IMG/VR virus record: IMGVR_UViG_3300035670_000598
Location: 1-38,559 of that record
Reading direction: 5' to 3' (one strand)
DNA: 38,559 bases
Origin: a virus
The notes under the pieces were generated by a model, which saw only the letters and a program-made list of their open reading frames with translations, made no database searches and was not told the DNA's origin. Every line of letters starts with the position of its first letter. The first letter of the stretch is position 1. Positions 1,016 to 27,610 of the stretch are shown here, one piece after another. Position numbers and translations under genes: made by a program.

Positions 1016-2733
1016 TCGTCCGCGACCTCCTGATCAAACTAGGCTTCTCGACAGACACCCGACAGCTATCTGGCACTGAGAAGCAGATCGATCGCCTGCG
1101 GGCATCGACAATCGCTCTCGGCGGCGTCATGGCCAACCTGGCACAGCAAGGCCTCGGCAAGGTCGCCAACGAGATGCGCGCCAGTGCTGAGTCGTCGATC
1201 GAATTCGGTCGAGGCATCGCCAACCTGTCGTCGATCATGGGCGGCACAGAGGCAGACACGCGCAAGATGGCGCAAGCCGCTAAGGATCTGGGCAAGGAAT
1301 TCGGCGTGATGCCTGAGCAGATCAGCGCCGCCATGTATGACGTGGTTGGCTCGCTCGGCTACACAGGCGACACAATCGCCCAGACTCGCGAGGCTGTGAA
1401 GCTGGGCAAGGCTGGCGCTGCGACGACCTCCGAGGCGTTCCAGGTGCTGATGCGCACCACGCTGGCCTACGGCGACACCAGCGAGGCCGCCATGCGCAAA
1501 GTCTCGGATCTGGCCAGCGCCACGATCCGCCTCGGCGTGCTGACGATGCCTGAGCTGTCAGCGTCGATCTCGAGCGTCACCCCGCTGGCATCGTCGCTCG
1601 GTGTCTCACTCGAGGAGCTCTTCGCCGTCCAAGCTGCGCTCTCAGGCCCGAGCGGCTCAGCGTCTGAGGTCTACACCCAGATGAGCAGCGCCATGACGGC
1701 GCTGCTGCGCCAGAACAAGACCATGGAGGCGCAATTCGAAAAGACCTTCAAGTCCAAGGGCATCGAAACCGTCGCGGAGGCCATCGGCAAATTCGGCCTG
1801 CAAGGCACGCTCAAGCAGCTGGTGGACGACGTAGGTGGATCGCAGGAAGCGCTTACTGAGATGTTCGGGCGCATCGAGGCCGTGCGGTTCGCGCTCGCTG
1901 CCACAGGCTCGCAGGCTGGTCGATACACACGGATGCAAAAGGAGCTGACGCAGGTCACAGGTGAAGTCGATCGCGCCGTGGCAAAGCAGACGACAGGCAT
2001 GGGCGCGGCAGCGTTCGCTCTGGACAAGACGCGAGCAGCTGCGCAAGCAGAGCGCATCGAGATCGGCGAGAAGCTGGCGCCAGCCATGATCGGCCTCGAG
2101 GCTGCTGGCGCCAAGGTGTTCGCGATGTTCGCTGATAACATCCTGCCAGCCTTCACCGCTGGCAGCGGTGCGATCATCCAGATGAGCGACGCCACGACGG
2201 TTCTCGGCGGCGCGCTGAACATCGTCGGTCGAGTCCTCGGGGCAGTGCGGATTGCGATCGAGTCGGTGCTGTTGCTTGCGCAGCAGGTCTACGCTGTGAT
2301 CACTGGTCTGCTGGCCGCATCGATCCAACTCGCCAAGCTGAACCCGAAAGGCGCTGCAGCCGTCCTCAGCCAGATGCCCAAGCAGATTTCAGAGAATTAC
2401 GCGAATTACAAGCAGTCTGTTGCAGGTACAGCGGAATTCGTCTCGACAGGACACGATCCCAGCAAGACATCAGCAGCACGAGCAGCAGCATCAGCTGCAG
2501 CCATGGAGCGGATCACAGGTCTATTCGGCGCAGCGCAAACGGCGCTGAGTGGAGCGCTGCAGACGCCGATGGTCCGTGCGGACGTCGGAGGCGTGACTGT
2601 CAATGTCACTGTGCCAGCTGGGACCACGGGACAAGGCGCTGCGCTGATCGCTGATCAGGGATCGCGTTCGATGCTGGCCCAGTTCATGGCTGGCGTCCAG
2701 CAGTCGTTCCCTGTGCAGCAGCCAGGAGGCTGA
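1012..2733 (+). CDS. Tail tape measure protein
   Basis: The 573-residue protein has the opening typical of TP901-type tape measures: residues 1-60 contain VRDLLIKLGFSTDTRQL and KQIDRLRASTIALGG, followed by long Ala-rich helices and segments such as RGIANLSSIMGGTEADTRKMAQ that resemble the TP901 core domain. Hydrophobic stretches near residues 385-450 could insert in or cross the host membrane during DNA ejection. Tape measures set tail length at roughly 0.15 nm per residue in well-studied phages, so a tail of about 80-90 nm is expected, short for a contractile tail. The ATG at 1012 overlaps the upstream stop by 4 bases. It acts in the tube lumen with the chaperones encoded just before it. Confidence 0.9.
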   Translation: MIVRDLLIKLGFSTDTRQLSGTEKQIDRLRASTIALGGVMANLAQQGLGKVANEMRASAESSIEFGRGIANLSSIMGGTEADTRKMAQAAKDLGKEFGVMPEQISAAMYDVVGSLGYTGDTIAQTREAVKLGKAGAATTSEAFQVLMRTTLAYGDTSEAAMRKVSDLASATIRLGVLTMPELSASISSVTPLASSLGVSLEELFAVQAALSGPSGSASEVYTQMSSAMTALLRQNKTMEAQFEKTFKSKGIETVAEAIGKFGLQGTLKQLVDDVGGSQEALTEMFGRIEAVRFALAATGSQAGRYTRMQKELTQVTGEVDRAVAKQTTGMGAAAFALDKTRAAAQAERIEIGEKLAPAMIGLEAAGAKVFAMFADNILPAFTAGSGAIIQMSDATTVLGGALNIVGRVLGAVRIAIESVLLLAQQVYAVITGLLAASIQLAKLNPKGAAAVLSQMPKQISENYANYKQSVAGTAEFVSTGHDPSKTSAARAAASAAAMERITGLFGAAQTALSGALQTPMVRADVGGVTVNVTVPAGTTGQGAALIADQGSRSMLAQFMAGVQQSFPVQQPGG

Positions 2734-19253: not shown

Positions 19254-19271
19254 CAGGGCTCCGCTGCCCTG
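19254..19271 (-). promoter_or_regulatory. 5' stem-loop, CGGA-containing loop
   Basis: On the minus strand CAGGGC (19271-19266) pairs with GCCCTG (19259-19254), leaving the loop AGCGGA. It begins about 3 bases after the expected transcript start and ends 12 bases before the ATG of the 59-residue gene. It is one of four leaders in this genome that open with such a stem-loop. Confidence 0.6.
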
Positions 19272-19280
19272 ACACTAGCC

Positions 19281-19309
19281 AATCTACAATGCCGCGCTCT
19301 ATGTGTCAA
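19281..19309 (-). promoter_or_regulatory. Sigma70-type promoter for the RecE/RecT/SSB suboperon
   Basis: On the minus strand TTGACA (19309-19304), a 17-base spacer and TAGATT (19286-19281) form a strong promoter. The -35 hexamer lies in the last codons of the VRR-NUC gene. GGCTAGTGTC (19280-19271), a form of the recurrent GACACTAG element, lies between the -10 and the start site. Confidence 0.75.
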
Positions 19310-19619
19310 GCACCTGCTGCACAATATCTCGCACGGTCGCAACGTCGCGAGCCAGCACGTAGATCCCGCCAGCCGCCTCAAACGCAGCTTGCCAGCGACG
19401 CTGCTCTGGCGACTGCCTGCCAGTGGCCGTCTTGACCTCGACGGCTATGCTGCGTCCTCGAGCCGTCACGCGCAGGTCAGGTGCACCAGGCACACCAAAC
19501 TGGATGCGCCTGCCAGTGCGTGGATCCACGGCGCTGCCCGTGTTCGTCCGCTCGACCAGCACGCCCGGCAGCGAGCCGATCGCAGCGATGATCGCAGTCT
19601 GGATCTCCCGCTCGCTCAT
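19299..19619 (-). CDS. VRR-NUC domain nuclease
   Basis: The ATG at 19619 overlaps the helicase stop (ATGA); the longer open frame lies inside the helicase gene. The 106-residue product has the VRR-NUC layout: SEREIQTAIIAAIGSLPG, then the core FGVPGAPDLRVTARG with the metal-binding Asp, SIAVEVKTATGRQSPEQRRW with Glu-x-Lys, and a final helix (TVRDIVQQVLD). Single-domain VRR-NUC proteins in phages cleave branched DNA and may act as resolvase. It sits in a helicase-nuclease pair. Confidence 0.88.
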   Translation of the reverse strand: MSEREIQTAIIAAIGSLPGVLVERTNTGSAVDPRTGRRIQFGVPGAPDLRVTARGRSIAVEVKTATGRQSPEQRRWQAAFEAAGGIYVLARDVATVRDIVQQVLDT

Positions 19620-21019
19620 GCGCCACGCATCCGACGCCACACCCGCGACTCCGTCCAGCCTGTGTATCGCCCGCCGCTGGGCAGTGCATAGCCCTCGCGT
19701 GCGCGCGTCGCCTCCAGCCTGTGCCAGTAATCCGCCCAGCCAGCAGCCCATGCTGGGCACGCCCTCGGCGGTACGGTGCGGCTCTCGACCCGTGCGCGGC
19801 GCTCGAGCTCGGCAGCTGTCACCCGCTGCAGCTCGCCGTCTGTGTGCTTCGGCAGGTCGCGCGGCGTCGACCTGGCTGGCTCACCACACCGCGGACAGAC
19901 CCTCGGCCCAGTCCACATCGCCAGACACTGGCGGCAGGTGTGCAGTGACTCTGGCGCCTGTGCAGACCGTCGCGGCTTGCCGTCCAGCGACCAGACGCGC
20001 AGATCTGCTGGCAGGCCGTGGCGCCACACGTTGCCGCCGCCGTCGATCACCACGCAGCTAGCCTTGCCATCAGCTGGACGCAGCCCACGGCCAGTCCCTT
20101 GCAAATATACCGACAGGGATGCTGTGGCCCTCGCCCAGTAGATCGCCGACACCTCTGGGATGTCGAGGCCCTCGATGGCGATCCCGACGTTGCTCAGGAC
20201 GTCGATCTCGTGGCGACGCAGCGCGTCGAACGCAGCCAACCGCTCGGCGTCTGGCGTGCTGCCGTCCACGTGCACCGCGCGCACGCCTGCAGCCTGCAGC
20301 GCAGCCACGCAGTCGCGGCTGTGGTCGATGCCCGCCGCGAACAGCACCGTCCTGCGACCCCGCGCCAGTCGCAGCCACTGCTCGGGCACGCTGCCGACGA
20401 TCTGCGGCCTGCGGTACGCCACCTCCAGCTGGCGCGCGTCGAATTCACCAGCGCGCACAGCGACGCCGTGCAGGTCTGGAGACGGTGCAGCGTACAGCTC
20501 GGCAGGCACCAGCCAGCCGTCGTCCGTCAGCTGCTGCATCGACGGCCCTGACACCAGCACATCAGCCAGCTCGCGCAGCGGCTTGCCGTCGAGCCTGCAC
20601 GGCGTCGCCGTCAGGCAGAGCACGCGCGCATCTGGCAGGCGCTCGAGCAGCCGCACGTGCGAGGCGTGCAGGCAGTGCGCCTCGTCGATCACGATCAGGT
20701 CAGCTGGCGGCACATCACGGCGCGCGAGCGTCTGGGCACTGGCCAGCACGACGTCGCCCACGACGCCACGGCGACCAGCCACCAGCAGCGCAGGATCGAT
20801 CCCCTGCGCCTGCAGCTTCGCTGCCGTCTGCCTGATGATCTCGTCTCGATGGCACACGTACAGCACGCGACGGCCCTTCGCACGTGCGCCAGCCACCACG
20901 GCAGCAGCGATCACCGTCTTGCCAGCGCCTGTCGCGGCCTGCAGCAGCACGCGCTTGGCGCCGCTGCGGTATGCCTGACGGCAGTCCTCGATCAACTGTG
21001 TCTGATATGACCGCAGCAT
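19616..21019 (-). CDS. SF2 DNA helicase (DEAH) with C-terminal zinc finger
   Basis: The ATG at 21019 shares a base with the upstream stop (TGATG); a GTG nine bases earlier is less likely. The 467-residue protein has Q-motif-like RSYQTQLIED, Walker A ATGAGKT (29-35), motif Ia VLYVCHRDEI, DEAH, motif III LTATP, motif V SNVGIAIEGLDIP and motif VI QGTGRGLRP. A four-Cys finger (CRQCLAMWTGPRVCPRCG) follows, then a basic tail. It uses ATP to unwind or remodel DNA in replication or recombination with the VRR-NUC nuclease encoded next. Confidence 0.92.
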   Translation of the reverse strand: MLRSYQTQLIEDCRQAYRSGAKRVLLQAATGAGKTVIAAAVVAGARAKGRRVLYVCHRDEIIRQTAAKLQAQGIDPALLVAGRRGVVGDVVLASAQTLARRDVPPADLIVIDEAHCLHASHVRLLERLPDARVLCLTATPCRLDGKPLRELADVLVSGPSMQQLTDDGWLVPAELYAAPSPDLHGVAVRAGEFDARQLEVAYRRPQIVGSVPEQWLRLARGRRTVLFAAGIDHSRDCVAALQAAGVRAVHVDGSTPDAERLAAFDALRRHEIDVLSNVGIAIEGLDIPEVSAIYWARATASLSVYLQGTGRGLRPADGKASCVVIDGGGNVWRHGLPADLRVWSLDGKPRRSAQAPESLHTCRQCLAMWTGPRVCPRCGEPARSTPRDLPKHTDGELQRVTAAELERRARVESRTVPPRACPAWAAGWADYWHRLEATRAREGYALPSGGRYTGWTESRVWRRMRGA

Positions 21020-22407
21020 CAGTGCCACCCGCCTACGGTCTGGGTCGCCCAGTCACCGCGCACGCGCAGGCCAGTCCGCAGCCGTTGCAGCCCGTCGTGA
21101 CGCTGGCCGAAACCGCGCTTCGTCAGCTCCCTGCCCAGCACAGGGATCGGCGGCGCTTGACGCTTGTAGCCGTTATCGGCGTACCAGTTGCCGACCGCTG
21201 TATGGATCCTCCTCGTCGTGTCCTCGAGGCCTTCGCCGATCTCGCAGACCTCGGCCAGCGCCATCGCCAGCACGTCCTCCTCCTCGCGATAGCTGGATGT
21301 GGCACGATCGACCGCCTTGCAGGTGCCCAGACCTTCGGCCAGGTACTTGCGCGCGCCCTCGATGGCCCATGTCAGGATCGTGTCACGCTCCTTCTCCAGT
21401 GCGTCGTCGAGCCAGCGATCCACCCGCTCGACTGGGATCGTCGTCTCGAACGGGATCACCCTGATACGGCGCCAAGTCCCGTTGTCGGTCGCGGTCACCC
21501 GTGGGCGCTCGTTGCAGCAGATCCAGAGTGTGTGACTGGGATCGAATTCGAAGAAGTCCTTGCCGATGAACCTAGCTTTGATCCGATCGCCACCGCTCAG
21601 CTCCTTCAGCTTGTTCTCATCGAGGCGGCTGCCAGCAGGCACCTCGGCAGACACCACCAGCCGCCGACCTGCGAGGTCTGCGATCTCCGTCGGGTGTGGC
21701 GTCTGTCCTTTCTCGACCAGCAACGTCGACGGGATCGCGCTGTAGTACGGCCCGACAGCATGCGAGATCGCGCGAAATAGCGTGCCCTTGCCGTTGCGGC
21801 CCGTGCCATGCGCCACGAATACAGCGTGATCGATCTGGCGACCGATCAGCGACGAGCCGATCGCCCGCTGCAGGTACGCCCGCAAGTCAGGGTCTGGCAT
21901 GATCTCGTCGAGGAACTGCCCCCAGCGCGTGCCAGTGACGTCTGTCACGAGGATCTCGACCGCTGGCGAGCAGACCGTGATCAAGTCCTTCTGACGGTGC
22001 ATGCGCATCGAGCCGTCCCGCAGATCGACCGTGCCTCCCGCGTGGTTCAGGCTGTACGGATCAGCGTCCCAGCCATCGACCGTCGCCACGCCCACCATCG
22101 TCTGCAGGCGCTTCTCGGTCGCCCACAGTGCAGCCGTCTGCTGGCGCGAGCTGCACCAGCGCAGGAATTTCTCTCGGGGCGACCTGTCGCCACCAGTCGG
22201 ATCCAGCTGGTCAGCCGCTGCAATGCACCGCTCGACCGTCAGGCCGATCGTCTCGATCAGCGAGTGGCTGCGATCGGCCTGCCAGTGCGTGTCGCGCCAG
22301 ACCATCCAGCCAAGGCCCGTCCTGTAGCGGTAACGGTCTGGGTGCAGGTGCAGCACCCGCTCGGCCATCCCCGTGTCGTTCTGTGGCAAATAGATCAGCG
22401 GTTCCAT
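21019..22407 (-). CDS. SF3 replicative helicase (P4/D5 primase-helicase C-terminal type)
   Basis: The 462-residue protein has the D5_N-like region (TLNHAGGTVDLRDG-type stretch at 120-135), then the SF3 core: Walker A GTGRNGKGT (201-209), Walker B region RRLVVSAEVPAGSRL, motif LKELSGGDRIKARFIGKDFF and the C-motif FDPSHTLWICCNERP, followed by RRIRVIPFE. A winged-helix-like C-terminus follows (VGNWYADNGYKRQAPPIPVL). It unwinds DNA at forks as a hexamer. The primase function is encoded by the gene before it, which overlaps it by 13 bases. No DNA polymerase gene is seen, so host polymerase is needed. Confidence 0.93.
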   Translation of the reverse strand: MEPLIYLPQNDTGMAERVLHLHPDRYRYRTGLGWMVWRDTHWQADRSHSLIETIGLTVERCIAAADQLDPTGGDRSPREKFLRWCSSRQQTAALWATEKRLQTMVGVATVDGWDADPYSLNHAGGTVDLRDGSMRMHRQKDLITVCSPAVEILVTDVTGTRWGQFLDEIMPDPDLRAYLQRAIGSSLIGRQIDHAVFVAHGTGRNGKGTLFRAISHAVGPYYSAIPSTLLVEKGQTPHPTEIADLAGRRLVVSAEVPAGSRLDENKLKELSGGDRIKARFIGKDFFEFDPSHTLWICCNERPRVTATDNGTWRRIRVIPFETTIPVERVDRWLDDALEKERDTILTWAIEGARKYLAEGLGTCKAVDRATSSYREEEDVLAMALAEVCEIGEGLEDTTRRIHTAVGNWYADNGYKRQAPPIPVLGRELTKRGFGQRHDGLQRLRTGLRVRGDWATQTVGGWH

Positions 22408-23363
22408 GGCATTGCCCTCTCTAGCGCGTCCGCACGCGCCGTTGCGATCATGGCCCTGCGACTGGGCCTCACCTGCGCACAGCTGGCCACTGTCTGCACT
22501 CCCAGCAGCGCCAGCACATCAGACAGGCCACGCCCTGCGCAGTGGGCGTGGAAACACCGAAAGCCCGGCAGCCTGCCAGCACCACCAGCGATCAACACGG
22601 TCGACGTCGATCCCTGCTGGCCGCCAGTATGCTCCGCGCGCCACGGGCACTGTATAGCCCAGCGCGCATCGCCACCAGCCGTCGAGCCGTGCTGCTGCGG
22701 GTCGAGGCCTGCCGCACGAGCCAGCGCTGCAACGTCGAGCGTGGCCAGATCGACCTCGCCGCCGATCACGGCAGTCTGCACCCGTGGGCGCTCGGCTCGT
22801 GGAAGCTGCGGCAGGGACTGCAGGATCTCGGGCACTCTGTAGACCGCGCCGCTGTCGTGCAGGATGTGCACCAGGTACGGCGGATCGACCTTCTGCTGGG
22901 TCGTGCCGGGCAGCCGCATCACGCGAGGCAGGTCGCACACCGCGCGATCGCTGCCGTAGTGCTGGGCGATCCTGTGCTGCGCGTCGCGGAACAGTCGCGC
23001 GATCGGGTCTGCGCCGCCGTCGATCGCCCAGTAGGCATGCACGCCACGGCGAGACTGGACGATCAGAGTCGGCTCGAGGTGCCACACTGACGGGGCAGGC
23101 GATCCGTCGAAGTCGGCGAACAGCGCCCGCACGCGCAGGACGTCGCCAGCGCGACGGTGGCCGAGCCGTGTCTCATTCACTGTGGCGAAGATCCCTTGGC
23201 CATCAGCCTGTTGGCGCTCTATCCACGGCCACAGCTCGGGCAGCGATCCGCCGCGCACCTCAGGGCGACCGCCAGCCTTCCGGTCATCGAATGTCTGGAT
23301 CGTCAGCTGGTCAGTTCCAGCGATCGCCCACGCCCATGCAAGCGCTTGATCAAGCTGCAACAT
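22395..23363 (-). CDS. DNA primase (RepB-like), with zinc-finger-like C-terminus
   Basis: The ATG at 23363 gives 322 residues; the open frame extends 86 codons further, but that part crosses a promoter and a large hairpin. The core has LRVRALFADFDGSPAPS (acidic pair of the primase active site), TLIVQSRRGVHAYWAIDG and DRAVCDLPRVMRLPGTTQQK, the pattern of RSF1010 RepB'-type primases. The C-terminus has CPWRAEHTGG and FRCFHAHCAGRG, which may form a zinc site like that in CHC2 primases. It makes primers for the SF3 helicase-driven fork. Confidence 0.82.
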   Translation of the reverse strand: MLQLDQALAWAWAIAGTDQLTIQTFDDRKAGGRPEVRGGSLPELWPWIERQQADGQGIFATVNETRLGHRRAGDVLRVRALFADFDGSPAPSVWHLEPTLIVQSRRGVHAYWAIDGGADPIARLFRDAQHRIAQHYGSDRAVCDLPRVMRLPGTTQQKVDPPYLVHILHDSGAVYRVPEILQSLPQLPRAERPRVQTAVIGGEVDLATLDVAALARAAGLDPQQHGSTAGGDARWAIQCPWRAEHTGGQQGSTSTVLIAGGAGRLPGFRCFHAHCAGRGLSDVLALLGVQTVASCAQVRPSRRAMIATARADALERAMPWNR

Positions 23364-23378
23364 CGCGCACCCCGACCG

Positions 23379-23459
23379 CACAGCCCAGATCAGCAACAGG
23401 CGGAACCCCGCACGCGTGGAGACGATACGCGTGCAGGCAAGCTGCTGATCTGGGCTGTG
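23379..23459. repeat. Large nested inverted repeat upstream of primase (possible origin/ssi hairpin)
   Basis: The 17-bp arm at 23379-23395 is the exact reverse complement of 23443-23459. Inside, GCACGCGT (23410-23417) pairs with ACGCGTGC (23427-23434) across a 9-base loop. Both stems can form together on one strand as a long hairpin, or as a cruciform. It sits 16 bp upstream of the primase start in the divergent control region. RepB-type primases start at hairpins near the origin, so a priming site is a reasonable inference; leader RNA control is an alternative. Confidence 0.7.
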
Positions 23460-23490
23460 ATGTCGTGTGGTGCATGGCCGTCTCCGTCGT

Positions 23491-23523
23491 GTGCCCTGCG
23501 CCGTTCCGCGGCGAGAGGGGCAC
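23491..23523 (-). promoter_or_regulatory. 5' stem-loop of leftward early transcript, CGGAA loop
   Basis: On the minus strand GTGCCC (23523-23518) pairs with GGGCAC (23496-23491) and inside it CGCCG (23513-23509) pairs with CGGCG (23503-23499), leaving loop CGGAA. It begins about 7 bases after the -10 hexamer, so it should be at the very 5' end of the leader. Confidence 0.6.
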
Positions 23524-23529
23524 GCCCAC

Positions 23530-23558
23530 AGTCTATCTAGACACTGGTCGCAGGTCAA
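23530..23558 (-). promoter_or_regulatory. Leftward early promoter (primase-helicase operon)
   Basis: On the minus strand TTGACC (23558-23553), a 17-base spacer and TAGACT (23535-23530). The spacer is filled by TGCGACCAGTGTC, the reverse complement of GACACTGGTCGCA (23540-23552), a one-base variant of the element at the rightward promoters. The leader to the primase ATG is about 160 bases. Confidence 0.78.
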
Positions 23559-23614
23559 GCCGTCGGCGCCAGATGCTGATGGCAAGTTTTTTGCGACCCC
23601 CCGCTGAAATATTC

Positions 23615-23643
23615 TTGACACTAGTCGCGTGGCAATCTAAGAT
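23615..23643 (+). promoter_or_regulatory. Rightward early promoter 1
   Basis: TTGACA (23615-23620), 17-base spacer, TAAGAT (23638-23643). The element GACACTAGTCGC covers 23617-23628, overlapping the -35 hexamer. Its spacer also shares CAATC before the -10 with promoter 2. Confidence 0.8.
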
Positions 23644-23650
23644 GGGATCA

Positions 23651-23668
23651 CCAGCGACGGAACGCTGG
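23651..23668 (+). promoter_or_regulatory. 5' stem-loop, ACGGAA loop
   Basis: CCAGCG pairs with CGCTGG around the loop ACGGAA, starting at about the expected transcript start and 25 bases before the ATG at 23694. The stem-loop at 23999-24016 has the same loop and inner stem, with the closing pair changed from C-G to T-A. Confidence 0.7.
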
Positions 23669-23693
23669 CAACCGACACCGAGGAGATCCGAAC

Positions 23694-23864
23694 ATGAAAG
23701 ACTTCAACAAAGAGTACAGCTACTACATCGGAACAGTTTGCCCGTGCTGTCACGCCAGCAGCGAGAAAGGTCACGAGTCCAACGGATTTACGGGCGACCG
23801 GGCATCCTACCTGTGCCGCGAGTGCCACGAGCAATGGGATGCTGAGAGCTACGCCCAGGATTAG
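23694..23864 (+). CDS. Zinc-ribbon protein, 56 aa
   Basis: The ATG at 23694 follows GAGGAGATC. The 56-residue product has two metal-binding knuckles, VCPCCHASSE and LCRECHEQWD, 27 residues apart, with a hydrophilic loop between (GHESNGFTGDRAS), and an acidic C-terminus. It is a compact zinc ribbon. It is the first gene after rightward promoter 1 and is followed by an inverted repeat and a second promoter, so it is expressed separately. Small zinc-ribbon early proteins often bind host RNA polymerase or nucleic acids, but the target here is unknown. Confidence 0.75.
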   Translation: MKDFNKEYSYYIGTVCPCCHASSEKGHESNGFTGDRASYLCRECHEQWDAESYAQD

Positions 23865-23873
23865 CTTGTGCCT

Positions 23874-23913
23874 TCCGTACTGCTCCTCAGCTGAGGTTGG
23901 GGGGCAGAACGGA
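23874..23913 (+). terminator. Inverted repeat after zinc-ribbon gene, possible terminator
   Basis: TCCGT/ACGGA, CTGC/GCAG and CCTC/GAGG arms stack around an AGCT loop, starting 10 bp after the stop at 23864. There is no T-run, so Rho-independent termination is doubtful; RNA stabilisation is also possible. Confidence 0.3.
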
Positions 23914-23962
23914 GCGCACACACTACCGCGCAAGAATTCTGCACCCGACCCCGACAATTCTC

Positions 23963-23991
23963 TTGACACTAGTCGCAAGTCAATCTAGACT
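23963..23991 (+). promoter_or_regulatory. Rightward early promoter 2
   Basis: TTGACA (23963-23968), 17-base spacer, TAGACT (23986-23991), with GACACTAGTCGC at 23965-23976. It is nearly a copy of promoter 1 in sequence from -35 to the leader stem-loop, suggesting duplication of the promoter-leader module. Confidence 0.82.
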
Positions 23992-23998
23992 GTGTTTA

Positions 23999-24016
23999 TC
24001 AGCGACGGAACGCTGA
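23999..24016 (+). promoter_or_regulatory. 5' stem-loop, ACGGAA loop (second copy)
   Basis: TCAGCG pairs with CGCTGA around ACGGAA, beginning at about the expected transcript start, 21 bases before the ATG at 24038. The outermost pair is T-A where copy one has C-G, which keeps pairing. Confidence 0.7.
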
Positions 24017-24037
24017 CCACCACCGAGGAGACAGACA

Positions 24038-24265
24038 ATGACGAAGGAAATGCTGATCGCGAACGCAGGACTCAAGGTTGCAGCCCCCCAGTGGGTTGAT
24101 CTCCAGTTCGAGCTGATCTGCGCCGCTCGCGACACGATGGCCGCTGGCGACATGGGCAAGGCTCTACAGATGCTGCACTTTGCCGCCACCGTCGTGGCCC
24201 ACCCTGACTTCTTCGGCGACGAGATGATCGAGCAGCTCTACAACGGCCTGCGCGCGCAGGCCTAG
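24038..24265 (+). CDS. Hypothetical helical protein, 75 aa
   Basis: The ATG at 24038 follows GAGGAGACA. The product looks all-helical (QWVDLQFELICAARDTMAAG, GKALQMLHFAATVVAHPDFF, then EMIEQLYNGLRAQA) with a mild acidic charge and no membrane segment. I do not recognise it. It is the first gene after promoter 2, so it is probably made early and in quantity, as is usual for host-takeover proteins. Confidence 0.65.
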   Translation: MTKEMLIANAGLKVAAPQWVDLQFELICAARDTMAAGDMGKALQMLHFAATVVAHPDFFGDEMIEQLYNGLRAQA

Positions 24266-25476: not shown

Positions 25477-25707
25477 CATCTGTTAGATCTGTTAGGGGAT
25501 CTGTTAGTCCAAACACCGCGAGATCACAGCACTTCTAACAGACTAACAGATCTAACAGATGTTTCGCTGCCGGATCCTACATAGAGCGATCTGCGTCTCG
25601 TATATGTGTGCGCGATCATCTGTTAGATCTGTTAATCTGTTAGTAACGTAAGGATCACAGGCACTTGCGGCTAACAGATCCTCAGGGCATCTGTTAGGAT
25701 CTGTTAG
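25477..25707. repeat. Array of twelve ATCTGTTAG repeats in direct and inverted order
   Basis: Forward copies start at 25478, 25487, 25499, 25618, 25627 (last base changed), 25635, 25689 and 25699. Inverted copies (CTAACAGAT) start at 25535 (last base changed), 25543, 25552 and 25671. The 19-base arm 25477-25495 pairs exactly with 25543-25561, and a third copy on each side adds 8 bp after a 4-base bulge. The two spacers share GATCACAG and CACTT, so the module looks duplicated. It lies between the Dps-like gene and the 167-residue gene, and is less GC-rich than the genome. It could be an iteron-type origin, a set of operators, or a structured RNA. Confidence 0.85.
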
Positions 25708-25805: not shown

Positions 25806-26309
25806 ATGCCATTGACCGCACCTACCCTCAAGCAGATCAGCGCCATCGGCGGCTTCGACTACACCACCAAGGCCGCTGTCCCGGTCAAGGACTTCTTGGC
25901 CAAGGTTGCCAATTCGACCATGTACGTCAGCAACCAGGTAGCTGGCCCCGAGATGACTCCCGCTGGCACCGATGTGACGCACTACGTTTTTGTTGCCGAT
26001 GCACCGTGCACCGTCACGGCAGCCAAGATCGTCCAAGGCGGCACCCCGACAGTTGCGCCTGCCGCTGCGCCCAACGACCTCAAGATCGAGGTCAAGAACG
26101 GCGCCACCGTCGTCGCGACGCGCACCTACAACAACGTCACCCTGCTGCCCGCCGCTGGCACCTTCTCGGCGTTGACCCTCTCGGGAACGGCAGCCAACCT
26201 CGACCTGGCGGCTGGCGACGTCCTCAGCCTCGTCGTGACCCAGAACGGCCTGTGCGAGCTCAACCCGTCGAGCCTGACTCTGGTCGTCTCGATGATCCCG
26301 AAGGCCTGA
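25806..26309 (+). CDS. Hypothetical beta-rich protein, 167 aa (possible virion decoration)
   Basis: The ATG follows CGGAGG. The 167-residue protein begins with a short leader (PLTAPTLKQISAIGGFDYTT), and residues 50-160 form a beta-sandwich-like region rich in Thr, Val and Ala (DVTHYVFVADAPCTVTAAKI, DLKIEVKNGATVVATRTYNN, VLSLVVTQNGLCEL). Such low-charge jelly-roll proteins are common as head decoration or fibre proteins. It stands alone with its own candidate promoter, just before the packaging genes. I do not recognise a family. Confidence 0.6.
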   Translation: MPLTAPTLKQISAIGGFDYTTKAAVPVKDFLAKVANSTMYVSNQVAGPEMTPAGTDVTHYVFVADAPCTVTAAKIVQGGTPTVAPAAAPNDLKIEVKNGATVVATRTYNNVTLLPAAGTFSALTLSGTAANLDLAAGDVLSLVVTQNGLCELNPSSLTLVVSMIPKA

Positions 26310-26353
26310 CACTAGTCGCACAGCTTGCCTCCAGCTGGCAGTCAGCCTAGACT
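26308..26353 (+). promoter_or_regulatory. Promoter of the ParB-methyltransferase/terminase operon with upstream GACACTAGTCGCA
   Basis: TTGCCT (26325-26330), 17-base spacer and TAGACT (26348-26353) form the promoter; the start site would lie about 12 bases before the GTG at 26372. GACACTAGTCGCA (26308-26320) lies immediately upstream and overlaps the TGA of the previous gene. The -10 hexamer equals those of two early promoters. Confidence 0.6.
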
Positions 26354-26371
26354 GTCGGCTGGAGGTGCTGT

Positions 26372-27610
26372 GTGAGCCAAGAAGCCGCCGCCGTATGGGT
26401 CGATGTCGCCGAGCTGCGACCGTGGGCCAACAATCCCCGAGACAACCGCAAGGCAATTGACGAGGTGGCCAAGAGCATTCGCCGCTTCGGCTGGGGCTCT
26501 CCCATCGTCGCCAACAAGCGCGACGGCGAGATCATCGCTGGACACACACGGTTCGCAGCGGCTCAGAAGCTCGGGCTCGACAAGGTGCCTGTGCGCTGGC
26601 TCGACCTCGACCCAGCTGACGCGCATGCGCTTGCGCTGGCCGACAACAAAGTCGGCGAGGTCGCGACGTGGGACGACGCTACGCTGCGGCAGGTCTTGCA
26701 GGAATTGCAGGACGCCGATGCGTCTCTGCTGGCCGATACTGGTTTCAGCGATGAGGAGCTGGCCGCGCTGATGGGCGACGTGCAGCCGAGCGTGCTGGAA
26801 CCCGAAGGCGATCCGCCCGAGGTTGACGAGGCTGGGCCTGTGCATAGCGTGCCTGGAGAGGTCTACCAACTTGGGCCGCATCGGCTTATGTGTGGCGACT
26901 CGACTAGCGTGGATGCTGTTGAGACGCTAATGGCTGGCGAGAAGGCCGACATGGTGTTCACTGATCCGCCATATGGCGTGAGCTACACGGATAGCCTTGG
27001 TCGAAGTATCAAGAATGATGATTTGACCGATGGAGATCTGCAAGAGTTTTTGCAAAAAGCATTTGCTTCTGCTGTTGCGGTGTCAGTGGATGATGCGCCT
27101 TGGTACGTGTGGCATGCCAGCAGGTATCAGCGCGAATTTGAAAGTGCATTGAACGCTTGCGCTGTTCAGGTGAAGCAGCAGATCATCTGGGTGAAAGGCG
27201 AAGGCGTAGATGGGACTGCTCAGATAAAAGCGCCAGCAATCGGTCGTTCTGATTTCCGCTGGCTTCATGAGCCATGCTTTTATGCATCAAGAGGCAAGCC
27301 GTTTAACGCCGGCGACCGCAAGACCACAACTGTCTGGACAGTGAGCCGGCCGACCACAAAAACGGTCCACCCGACGCAAAAGCCCATCCCTCTGATTGAA
27401 ATTGCTATCGACAACTCTGCTAAAAAGAAGGCCACGATACTCGACCTGTTCGGCGGCAGCGGCAGCACGCTGATCGCGTGTGAAAAGACTGGTCGCCAAT
27501 CGCGACTGATGGAACTCGACCCGCGCTACTGCGACGTCATCCGTCGCCGATGGACTCGCTGGGCCAAGGCCAACAACGTAGACCCAGGAACGGGGGCGCT
27601 CGATGGCTGA
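26372..27610 (+). CDS. ParB-like domain fused to N4/N6 DNA methyltransferase
   Basis: The GTG at 26372 follows GGAGGTG. Residues 10-90 are ParB/Srx-like: VDVAELRPWANNPRDNRKAI, FGWGSPIVANKRDGEIIAGH and GHTRFAAAQKLGLDKVPVRW. The methyltransferase half has the catalytic DPPY near residue 198 (MVFTDPPYGVSYTD) and a C-terminal AdoMet motif ILDLFGGSGSTLIACE. This fusion is common in phages beside terminase genes. It likely modifies phage DNA, and the ParB part may give site binding. Bases 26900-27470 are clearly less GC-rich and use different codons from the flanks, suggesting the catalytic core was swapped in by recombination. Confidence 0.92.
   Translation: MSQEAAAVWVDVAELRPWANNPRDNRKAIDEVAKSIRRFGWGSPIVANKRDGEIIAGHTRFAAAQKLGLDKVPVRWLDLDPADAHALALADNKVGEVATWDDATLRQVLQELQDADASLLADTGFSDEELAALMGDVQPSVLEPEGDPPEVDEAGPVHSVPGEVYQLGPHRLMCGDSTSVDAVETLMAGEKADMVFTDPPYGVSYTDSLGRSIKNDDLTDGDLQEFLQKAFASAVAVSVDDAPWYVWHASRYQREFESALNACAVQVKQQIIWVKGEGVDGTAQIKAPAIGRSDFRWLHEPCFYASRGKPFNAGDRKTTTVWTVSRPTTKTVHPTQKPIPLIEIAIDNSAKKKATILDLFGGSGSTLIACEKTGRQSRLMELDPRYCDVIRRRWTRWAKANNVDPGTGALDG

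Follow-up and report, generated by a model that had tools for sequence, protein, structure and literature searches.

In plasmids of the IncI complex (ColIb-P9) and of IncL/M (pMU604, pCTX-M3), the rep leader carries a short leader open reading frame (ORF) translationally coupled to the replication gene (PMC8125031, citing Athanasopoulos et al.). Translation of this gene depends on a pseudoknot in the leader mRNA (PMC8125031; Asano and Mizobuchi 1998, cited in PMC10724649) and is blocked by an antisense RNA (PMC8125031, PMC7646527). The R1-type (CopA/repA) and Pseudomonas REx-C systems likewise combine leader-ORF coupling with stem-loops upstream of the replication gene; their control is assigned to antisense RNA, and REx-C has no pseudoknot (PMC5304414). 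Among phages, Cluster K mycobacteriophages carry SAS/ESAS, repeated short inverted-repeat elements upstream of many gene starts; the arms of ESAS follow a conserved 17-base-pair (bp) consensus, with a variable spacer, next to SAS (PMC3203893). Here we describe the primase leader of the virus record IMGVR_UViG_3300035670_000598, whose 38,559 nucleotides (nt) we call the window (38.6 kb, 65% G+C, encoding a structural module of the contractile-tail type as well as a replication block). As read from its sequence, and with a probability that we put at roughly 0.6, the leftward primase mRNA opens with a structured leader that is capable of forming a pseudoknot and governs translation of the primase. 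If this is true, a conserved switch stands before a phage primase, and phages would time replication by the RNA logic of plasmid copy control.

The primase leader spans 23529-23361 on the minus strand (169 nt), with the following elements:

23530..23558, minus: promoter of the leftward primase operon, TTGACC-17-TAGACT, predicted from sequence
23491..23523, minus: H1, a two-tier 5' hairpin with outer stem GTGCCC/GGGCAC, inner stem CGCCG/CGGCG (23513-23499) and loop CGGAA; homologous in L282, L358, L346, L287 and L356
23509-23503, minus: GCGGAAC, the pairing segment of the H1 loop, complementary to y1
23478..23485, minus: Shine-Dalgarno sequence (SD) of the leader ORF, GGAGACGG, complementary to y2
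23350..23475, minus: leader ORF (uORF) of 41 codons, its stop overlapping the primase start by 14 nt
23443..23465, minus: 5' arm of the long stem H2, within the uORF; the 23-nt arms are 91% complementary
23418..23424, minus: y2, CGTCTCC, a complement of the uORF SD, located in the loop of H2a, a sub-hairpin with arms at 23437-23427 and 23417-23407
23400..23406, minus: y1, GTTCCGC, complementary to the H1 loop, with 6-7 possible pairs to three other early-leader loops
23373..23395, minus: 3' arm of H2; the predicted stem runs on to just upstream of the primase start
22395..23363, minus: primase/primase-polymerase gene, ATG at 23363, best hits phrog_10514 and phrog_2478

A D5-type primase/helicase gene follows the primase gene. 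The first-pass annotation had singled out H1 and three other early hairpins for a common CGGA loop; what it had not foreseen is that the primase-leader loop has its partner in the same mRNA, and that this very site also complements the loops of the other three hairpins. A repeat search independently listed a 13-nt H1/y1 match. The fold of the window leader scored z = -6.0, six leaders in an independent fold run scored between -3.4 and -5.1, and the zone just upstream of the primase start was largely paired in the predicted folds of 6/6 leaders. Opposite the leader (23200-23529, plus strand), a search for promoters of the sigma70-like type found none.

The same leader occurs in other phages. 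Syntenic relatives came from terminase and methyltransferase scans (L212/L282, L049/L287) and from further scans (L290, L346, L358, L356), and their primase is 41% identical to that of the window. Five relatives share the whole arrangement of hairpin, SD, 40-42 codon uORF and long stem over the primase ribosome-binding site, behind a promoter of the form TTGAC-17/18-TA...T and with the hairpin loop [N][CT]GCAAC. L290 is a truncated sixth relative, its contig starting just past the expected position of the primase-leader hairpin; it was surfaced by a promoter-plus-hairpin scan that used no loop criterion, through a hairpin with loop TCGCAAC before another early operon. In the window and all six relatives (7/7), the uORF has 40-42 codons and its stop overlaps the primase start. 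Hairpins of the relatives start 6-17 nt past the -10 element, which places those of window and relatives at about +1 to +11. When such hairpins followed by an SD and an ORF were ranked by promoter strength among the loci compared, only the window and these relatives stood at the top. L356 and L358 were obtained once the motif was already defined, and it is present in both; the L356 hairpin has a 4-bp inner stem within an outer stem, like H1 of the window.

Other searches delimit this distribution. A loose hairpin-plus-SD scan was discarded, control loops having matched as often as the motif, and the stem and promoter criteria were then tightened. The exact 16-mer CAGCGACGGAACGCTG was found in 38 stretches of IMG/VR, none with a comparable promoter/SD setting. 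A nucleotide search of the L282 leader against plasmids gave no match, and the named phages Suso and QH16, distant terminase relatives, had no such hairpin at any promoter. Three named phages have distantly related primases, and in each of them the primase gene is operon-internal, directly behind another gene. In L048, a 61% terminase relative, a promoter at ~1600-1660 (minus) is followed by a 5' hairpin GTCAGC...GCTGAC whose loop holds neither CGGA nor GCAAC.

The loop and y1 change together. Their pairs read GCGGAAC:GTTCCGC (7 bp) in the window, CGCAAC:GTTGCG in L282, L358, L346 and L356, and TGCAAC:GTTGCA in L287, and the complementarity occurs once per leader, at a homologous position, in 6/6 phages. 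For H1-y1 alone, 36/36 cells of the alignment are paired and two pairs show double changes, slid registers reaching at most 50%. The y1 segment, GGGGTTSCGCCTG, is kept at the nucleotide level although its reading phase within the uORF is 0 in the window and 2 in the relatives, which argues that selection acts on the RNA and not on the peptide. The uORF SD can pair with y2 over 7-9 bp in most phages; in L287 it does so in a shifted register, GACGGAGT with ACTCTGTC, including one G-U. As for the stems, seven leader hairpins from five relatives show changes on both sides at 5/5 stem pairs, with 94% of cells paired and a covariation score reached in 0/500 shuffles. The earlier proposal of selection on RNA structure is thereby upheld for the relatives' stems, while the roles it had attached to that structure (protein tag, antitermination, mRNA protection) appear less favoured. 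In a concatenated alignment of all four helices, 18 of 38 pairs show double changes, slid registers stay at or below about 50% paired, 0/500 shuffles are as good, and 95.3% of cells are paired, a percentage inflated by the picking and joining of segments by eye around the proposed helices; the double changes and slid controls are less affected by that choice. Elements, conservation and the upkeep of pairing by paired changes are thus established at the level of sequence comparison. The natural variants CGGAAC/GTTCCG, CGCAAC/GTTGCG and TGCAAC/GTTGCA are ready matched and mismatched pairs.

Besides the by-eye choice of segments, several points weigh against our reading. Only two H1-y1 pairs covary, each once, and this is equalled by 12/500 shuffles. 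The relatives are close to one another (D5 proteins 82-86% identical). The primase SD is weak in the window. For L282, the predicted ensemble has y1 base-paired for the most part (28% unpaired), and the energy figures exclude H1-y1 because this pairing crosses H2. Stem-loops and covariation do occur at promoters of the relatives, yet a covariance model built from the relatives alone misses the window hairpins, ranking H1 (the 23513 copy) 13th with E=6, so that the link between window and relatives rests on position, architecture and loop-y1 co-change. Finally, a cis partner for the loops of the non-primase leaders was sought within 300 nt and none was convincing; the cis model thus fails to explain these leaders. 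The 6-nt cis matches seen (TTCCGT at +230 in p23, CCGCTG at +278 in m19) are at chance level, and other leaders gave 5 nt.

Coupling, direction of control and timing are what we infer from the layout. With the uORF untranslated, H2 would hold the primase start closed; a ribosome on the uORF would open H2 and terminate across the primase start, which would allow coupled primase translation. Pairing of H1 with y1 and of the SD with y2 would determine the state of the RNA. The other three early hairpins would most likely be copies of H1 that compete for y1 in trans, the weakest step of the scheme, and these same copies would also supply early mRNAs with a structured 5' end.

All four stem-loops reported by the first-pass annotation are indeed present, near predicted 5' ends behind strong promoters. 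Those outside the primase leader, with promoters likewise predicted from sequence, are laid out as follows:

19281..19309, minus: promoter of the leftward recombination operon, TTGACA-17-TAGATT
19254..19271, minus: 5' hairpin CAGGGC-AGCGGA-GCCCTG at about +3; GCGGAGC:y1, 7 pairs including one G-U
19241-19062, minus: SD and ORF downstream of the 19271 hairpin
23615..23643, plus: promoter of rightward transcript 1, TTGACA-17-TAAGAT
23651..23668, plus: 5' hairpin CCAGCG-ACGGAA-CGCTGG at about +1; CGGAAC:y1, 6 bp
23694-23864, plus: SD and cysteine-rich 56-amino-acid ORF downstream of the 23651 hairpin
23963..23991, plus: promoter of rightward transcript 2, TTGACA-17-TAGACT
23999..24016, plus: 5' hairpin TCAGCG-ACGGAA-CGCTGA at about +1; CGGAAC:y1, 6 bp
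24038-24265, plus: SD and 75-amino-acid ORF downstream of the 23999 hairpin

A scan of the window with TTGACN{15,19}TANANT gave 3 matches against 0.19 expected, the fourth early promoter having TAAGAT. From the -10 element to the hairpin there are 7 nt (23651, plus), 7 nt (23999, plus), 9 nt (19271, minus) and 6 nt (outer stem of 23523, minus), so that the hairpins begin at about +1 to +3 of RNAs whose 5' ends are predicted from the promoters. A random 45-mer of the window has a probability of 0.005 of holding a hairpin of at least 5 bp with CGGA in a loop of 4-8 nt. CGGA hairpins at 4/4 early promoters are far beyond chance, despite a motif defined post hoc and a near-duplicate pair. A tighter motif, at least 5 Watson-Crick pairs with YG[CG]AAC across the loop, occurs exactly three times in the window, always at early promoters. 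The CGGA loop described earlier is accordingly present in all four copies, its core being better written YG[G/C]AAC in three of them (the 19271 copy has GCGGAG). The C-G versus T-A difference between the two rightward copies, taken earlier as covariation, does keep pairing; as a single outermost pair it is weak evidence alone.

Two neighbouring features were seen: a terminator-like stem with a T run at 23559-23583 (plus), rightward-pointing between the divergent early promoters, and a hairpin GGCGCG-TGCGGA-CGCGCT at 22440-22423 (minus), with CGGA in its loop, just 5' of the SD that serves the D5 primase/helicase gene and with no promoter. At the DNA level, the 9-mer TGACACTAG (plus) occurs exactly four times in the window (19270-19278, 23616-23624, 23964-23972, 26307-26315), each time at a promoter, is extended to TGACACTAGTCGC at three of these four, and has a variant, GACACTGGTCGCAGGTCAAG, inside the 23558-23530 promoter. 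It is probably a DNA operator common to the early promoters and to the promoter preceding a methyltransferase gene.

From the complementarity of their loops, the three non-primase hairpins may act in trans on the primase leader. The window holds 608 hairpins of 5 or more pairs. Only nine of them have a loop able to form at least 6 pairs with y1, and the early-leader hairpins account for four of these nine. Non-primase leaders of the relatives (L282 at 13153 and 14366, L290 at 5641) have the loop CGCAAC, the complement of their own y1. The background is higher in the relatives, with 5 to 15 y1-fitting hairpins per locus, though at each locus the sole y1-fitting hairpin with a promoter is a leader hairpin. 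These observations fit pairing in trans, but also a shared protein or shared descent. We offer only tentatively the idea of an RNA-RNA network, in which the 5' loop of every early leader matches the single y1 and early transcripts set primase translation in trans, replacing a dedicated antisense RNA, or in which, conversely, it is the y2-y1 segment of the primase mRNA that shuts down the SDs of other early mRNAs. That the loop recurs points to a link of several early operons to a single RNA site. Behind the 56-amino-acid ORF, at 23873-23890 (plus), TTCCGT and CTCCTC are complementary to the loop and SD of their own transcript and lie in a larger hairpin; this could be chance.

The shared loop could also be a site for a phage or host protein, a translational repressor or an antiterminator acting on all early leaders, in which case the y1 match would hide the site in one mRNA or be a coincidence. 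One loop class on transcripts in both directions, the unrelated stems, the closeness of the hairpins to the SD and the lack of convincing cis partners in the non-primase leaders would all suit such a protein. However, the loop varies by phage and y1 tracks each change: a base-pairing role explains CGGAAC here and CGCAAC or TGCAAC in the relatives, as a fixed protein site would not. With the early leaders so prominent among the y1-fitting hairpins of the window, and no candidate RNA-binding gene identified, we regard a protein site as unlikely. The CsrA/RsmA version of it, in which early mRNAs would recruit or titrate a host regulator through ANGGA in a hexaloop, is very improbable. The consensus of these proteins is ANGGAN, and the ACGGAA loop of two copies fits it, but the 23523 and 19271 loops are off that spacing, the GGA found in the apical loops of the window is missing from the homologous GCAAC loops of the relatives, and a search for a CsrA-family gene in the window found none.

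Position alone would suit a simpler role. The 5'-terminal stems of T7 class III mRNAs and of ompA are known stabilisers, and hairpins that start 6-9 nt past the -10 element in the window, with the somewhat wider range of the relatives, could be plain stem-loops that shield early mRNAs against loss of pyrophosphate and against entry of RNase E, with a loop sequence of minor importance. Since conservation is much higher in the loop than in the stems, and the loop matches y1, we think this improbable as the main role. Being all just 3' of promoters, most of which share the separate DNA box TGACACTAG, the inverted repeats might finally be DNA operators themselves; their arms are fully divergent and their centre conserved, the opposite of a protein operator, and the relatives retain pairing rather than arm sequence, which makes an operator role hardly credible.

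A nucleotide search of the window against the phage collection gave no match, and initial protein scans returned nothing close to its replication genes. Genomes with terminase relatives are mostly from Proteobacteria, and the terminase allows no finer host call. Rfam covariance models gave no gathering-level match in the window, and at 23440-24080 only chance-level miRNA matches. Elsewhere in the region, a promoter TTGCCT-17-TAGACT stands ahead of the ParB-methyltransferase gene (26326-26372), and a 16-nt inverted repeat (26328-26343/26350-26365) pairs its -35 region with the SD; relative L046 keeps this inverted repeat with different letters. The methyltransferase SD would then be hidden in read-through RNA and free in promoter-started RNA, by analogy with some T4 late genes, where a comparable hiding of the SD in read-through RNA is known. 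In a non-coding stretch at 25479-25707, a possible replication origin, the exact repeat TCTGTTAG occurs eleven times, counting both strands, where the entire window would be expected to hold 0.3; in the relatives, GGGACA-type repeats lie upstream of the primase promoter.

Compared with known systems, the early hairpins share with the nut sites of lambda (boxA/boxB), promoter-proximal hairpins of the leftward and rightward early transcripts, their place on early transcripts in both directions. A lambda-type nut site was rejected, no boxA-like sequence being present in the short leaders as read and the hairpins adjoining the SD. Like ESAS, they are repeated short inverted-repeat elements before phage gene starts; they were not assigned to ESAS, since in this phage it is the loop that is conserved, the arms being unrelated between copies, which is the reverse of ESAS. 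The leader ORF and upstream stem-loops at a replication gene are shared with the R1-type and REx-C systems, which are under antisense-RNA control, whereas the phage leader has no visible sigma70-like antisense promoter. The closest likeness is to IncI/IncL/M. As there, the loop of a 5' hairpin has its complement at a site that precedes the replication-gene start, a short uORF overlaps that start in seven phages, with coupling that we infer, and a stem is predicted to sequester the primase ribosome-binding region in six leaders. Unlike there, the loops are CGGAAC, CGCAAC or TGCAAC and not the UUGGCG motif of the IncI complex, the gene is a phage primase and not a RepA/RepZ-family initiator, and no antisense promoter of the sigma70-like type is visible in the window leader; because of these three differences we do not count the primase leader as a member. 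The phage leader also has an extra SD-y2 pairing, and other phage early mRNAs bear loops that fit the same site. By analogy, then, it is in the way of working, rather than by membership, that the primase leader resembles the IncI/IncL/M systems.

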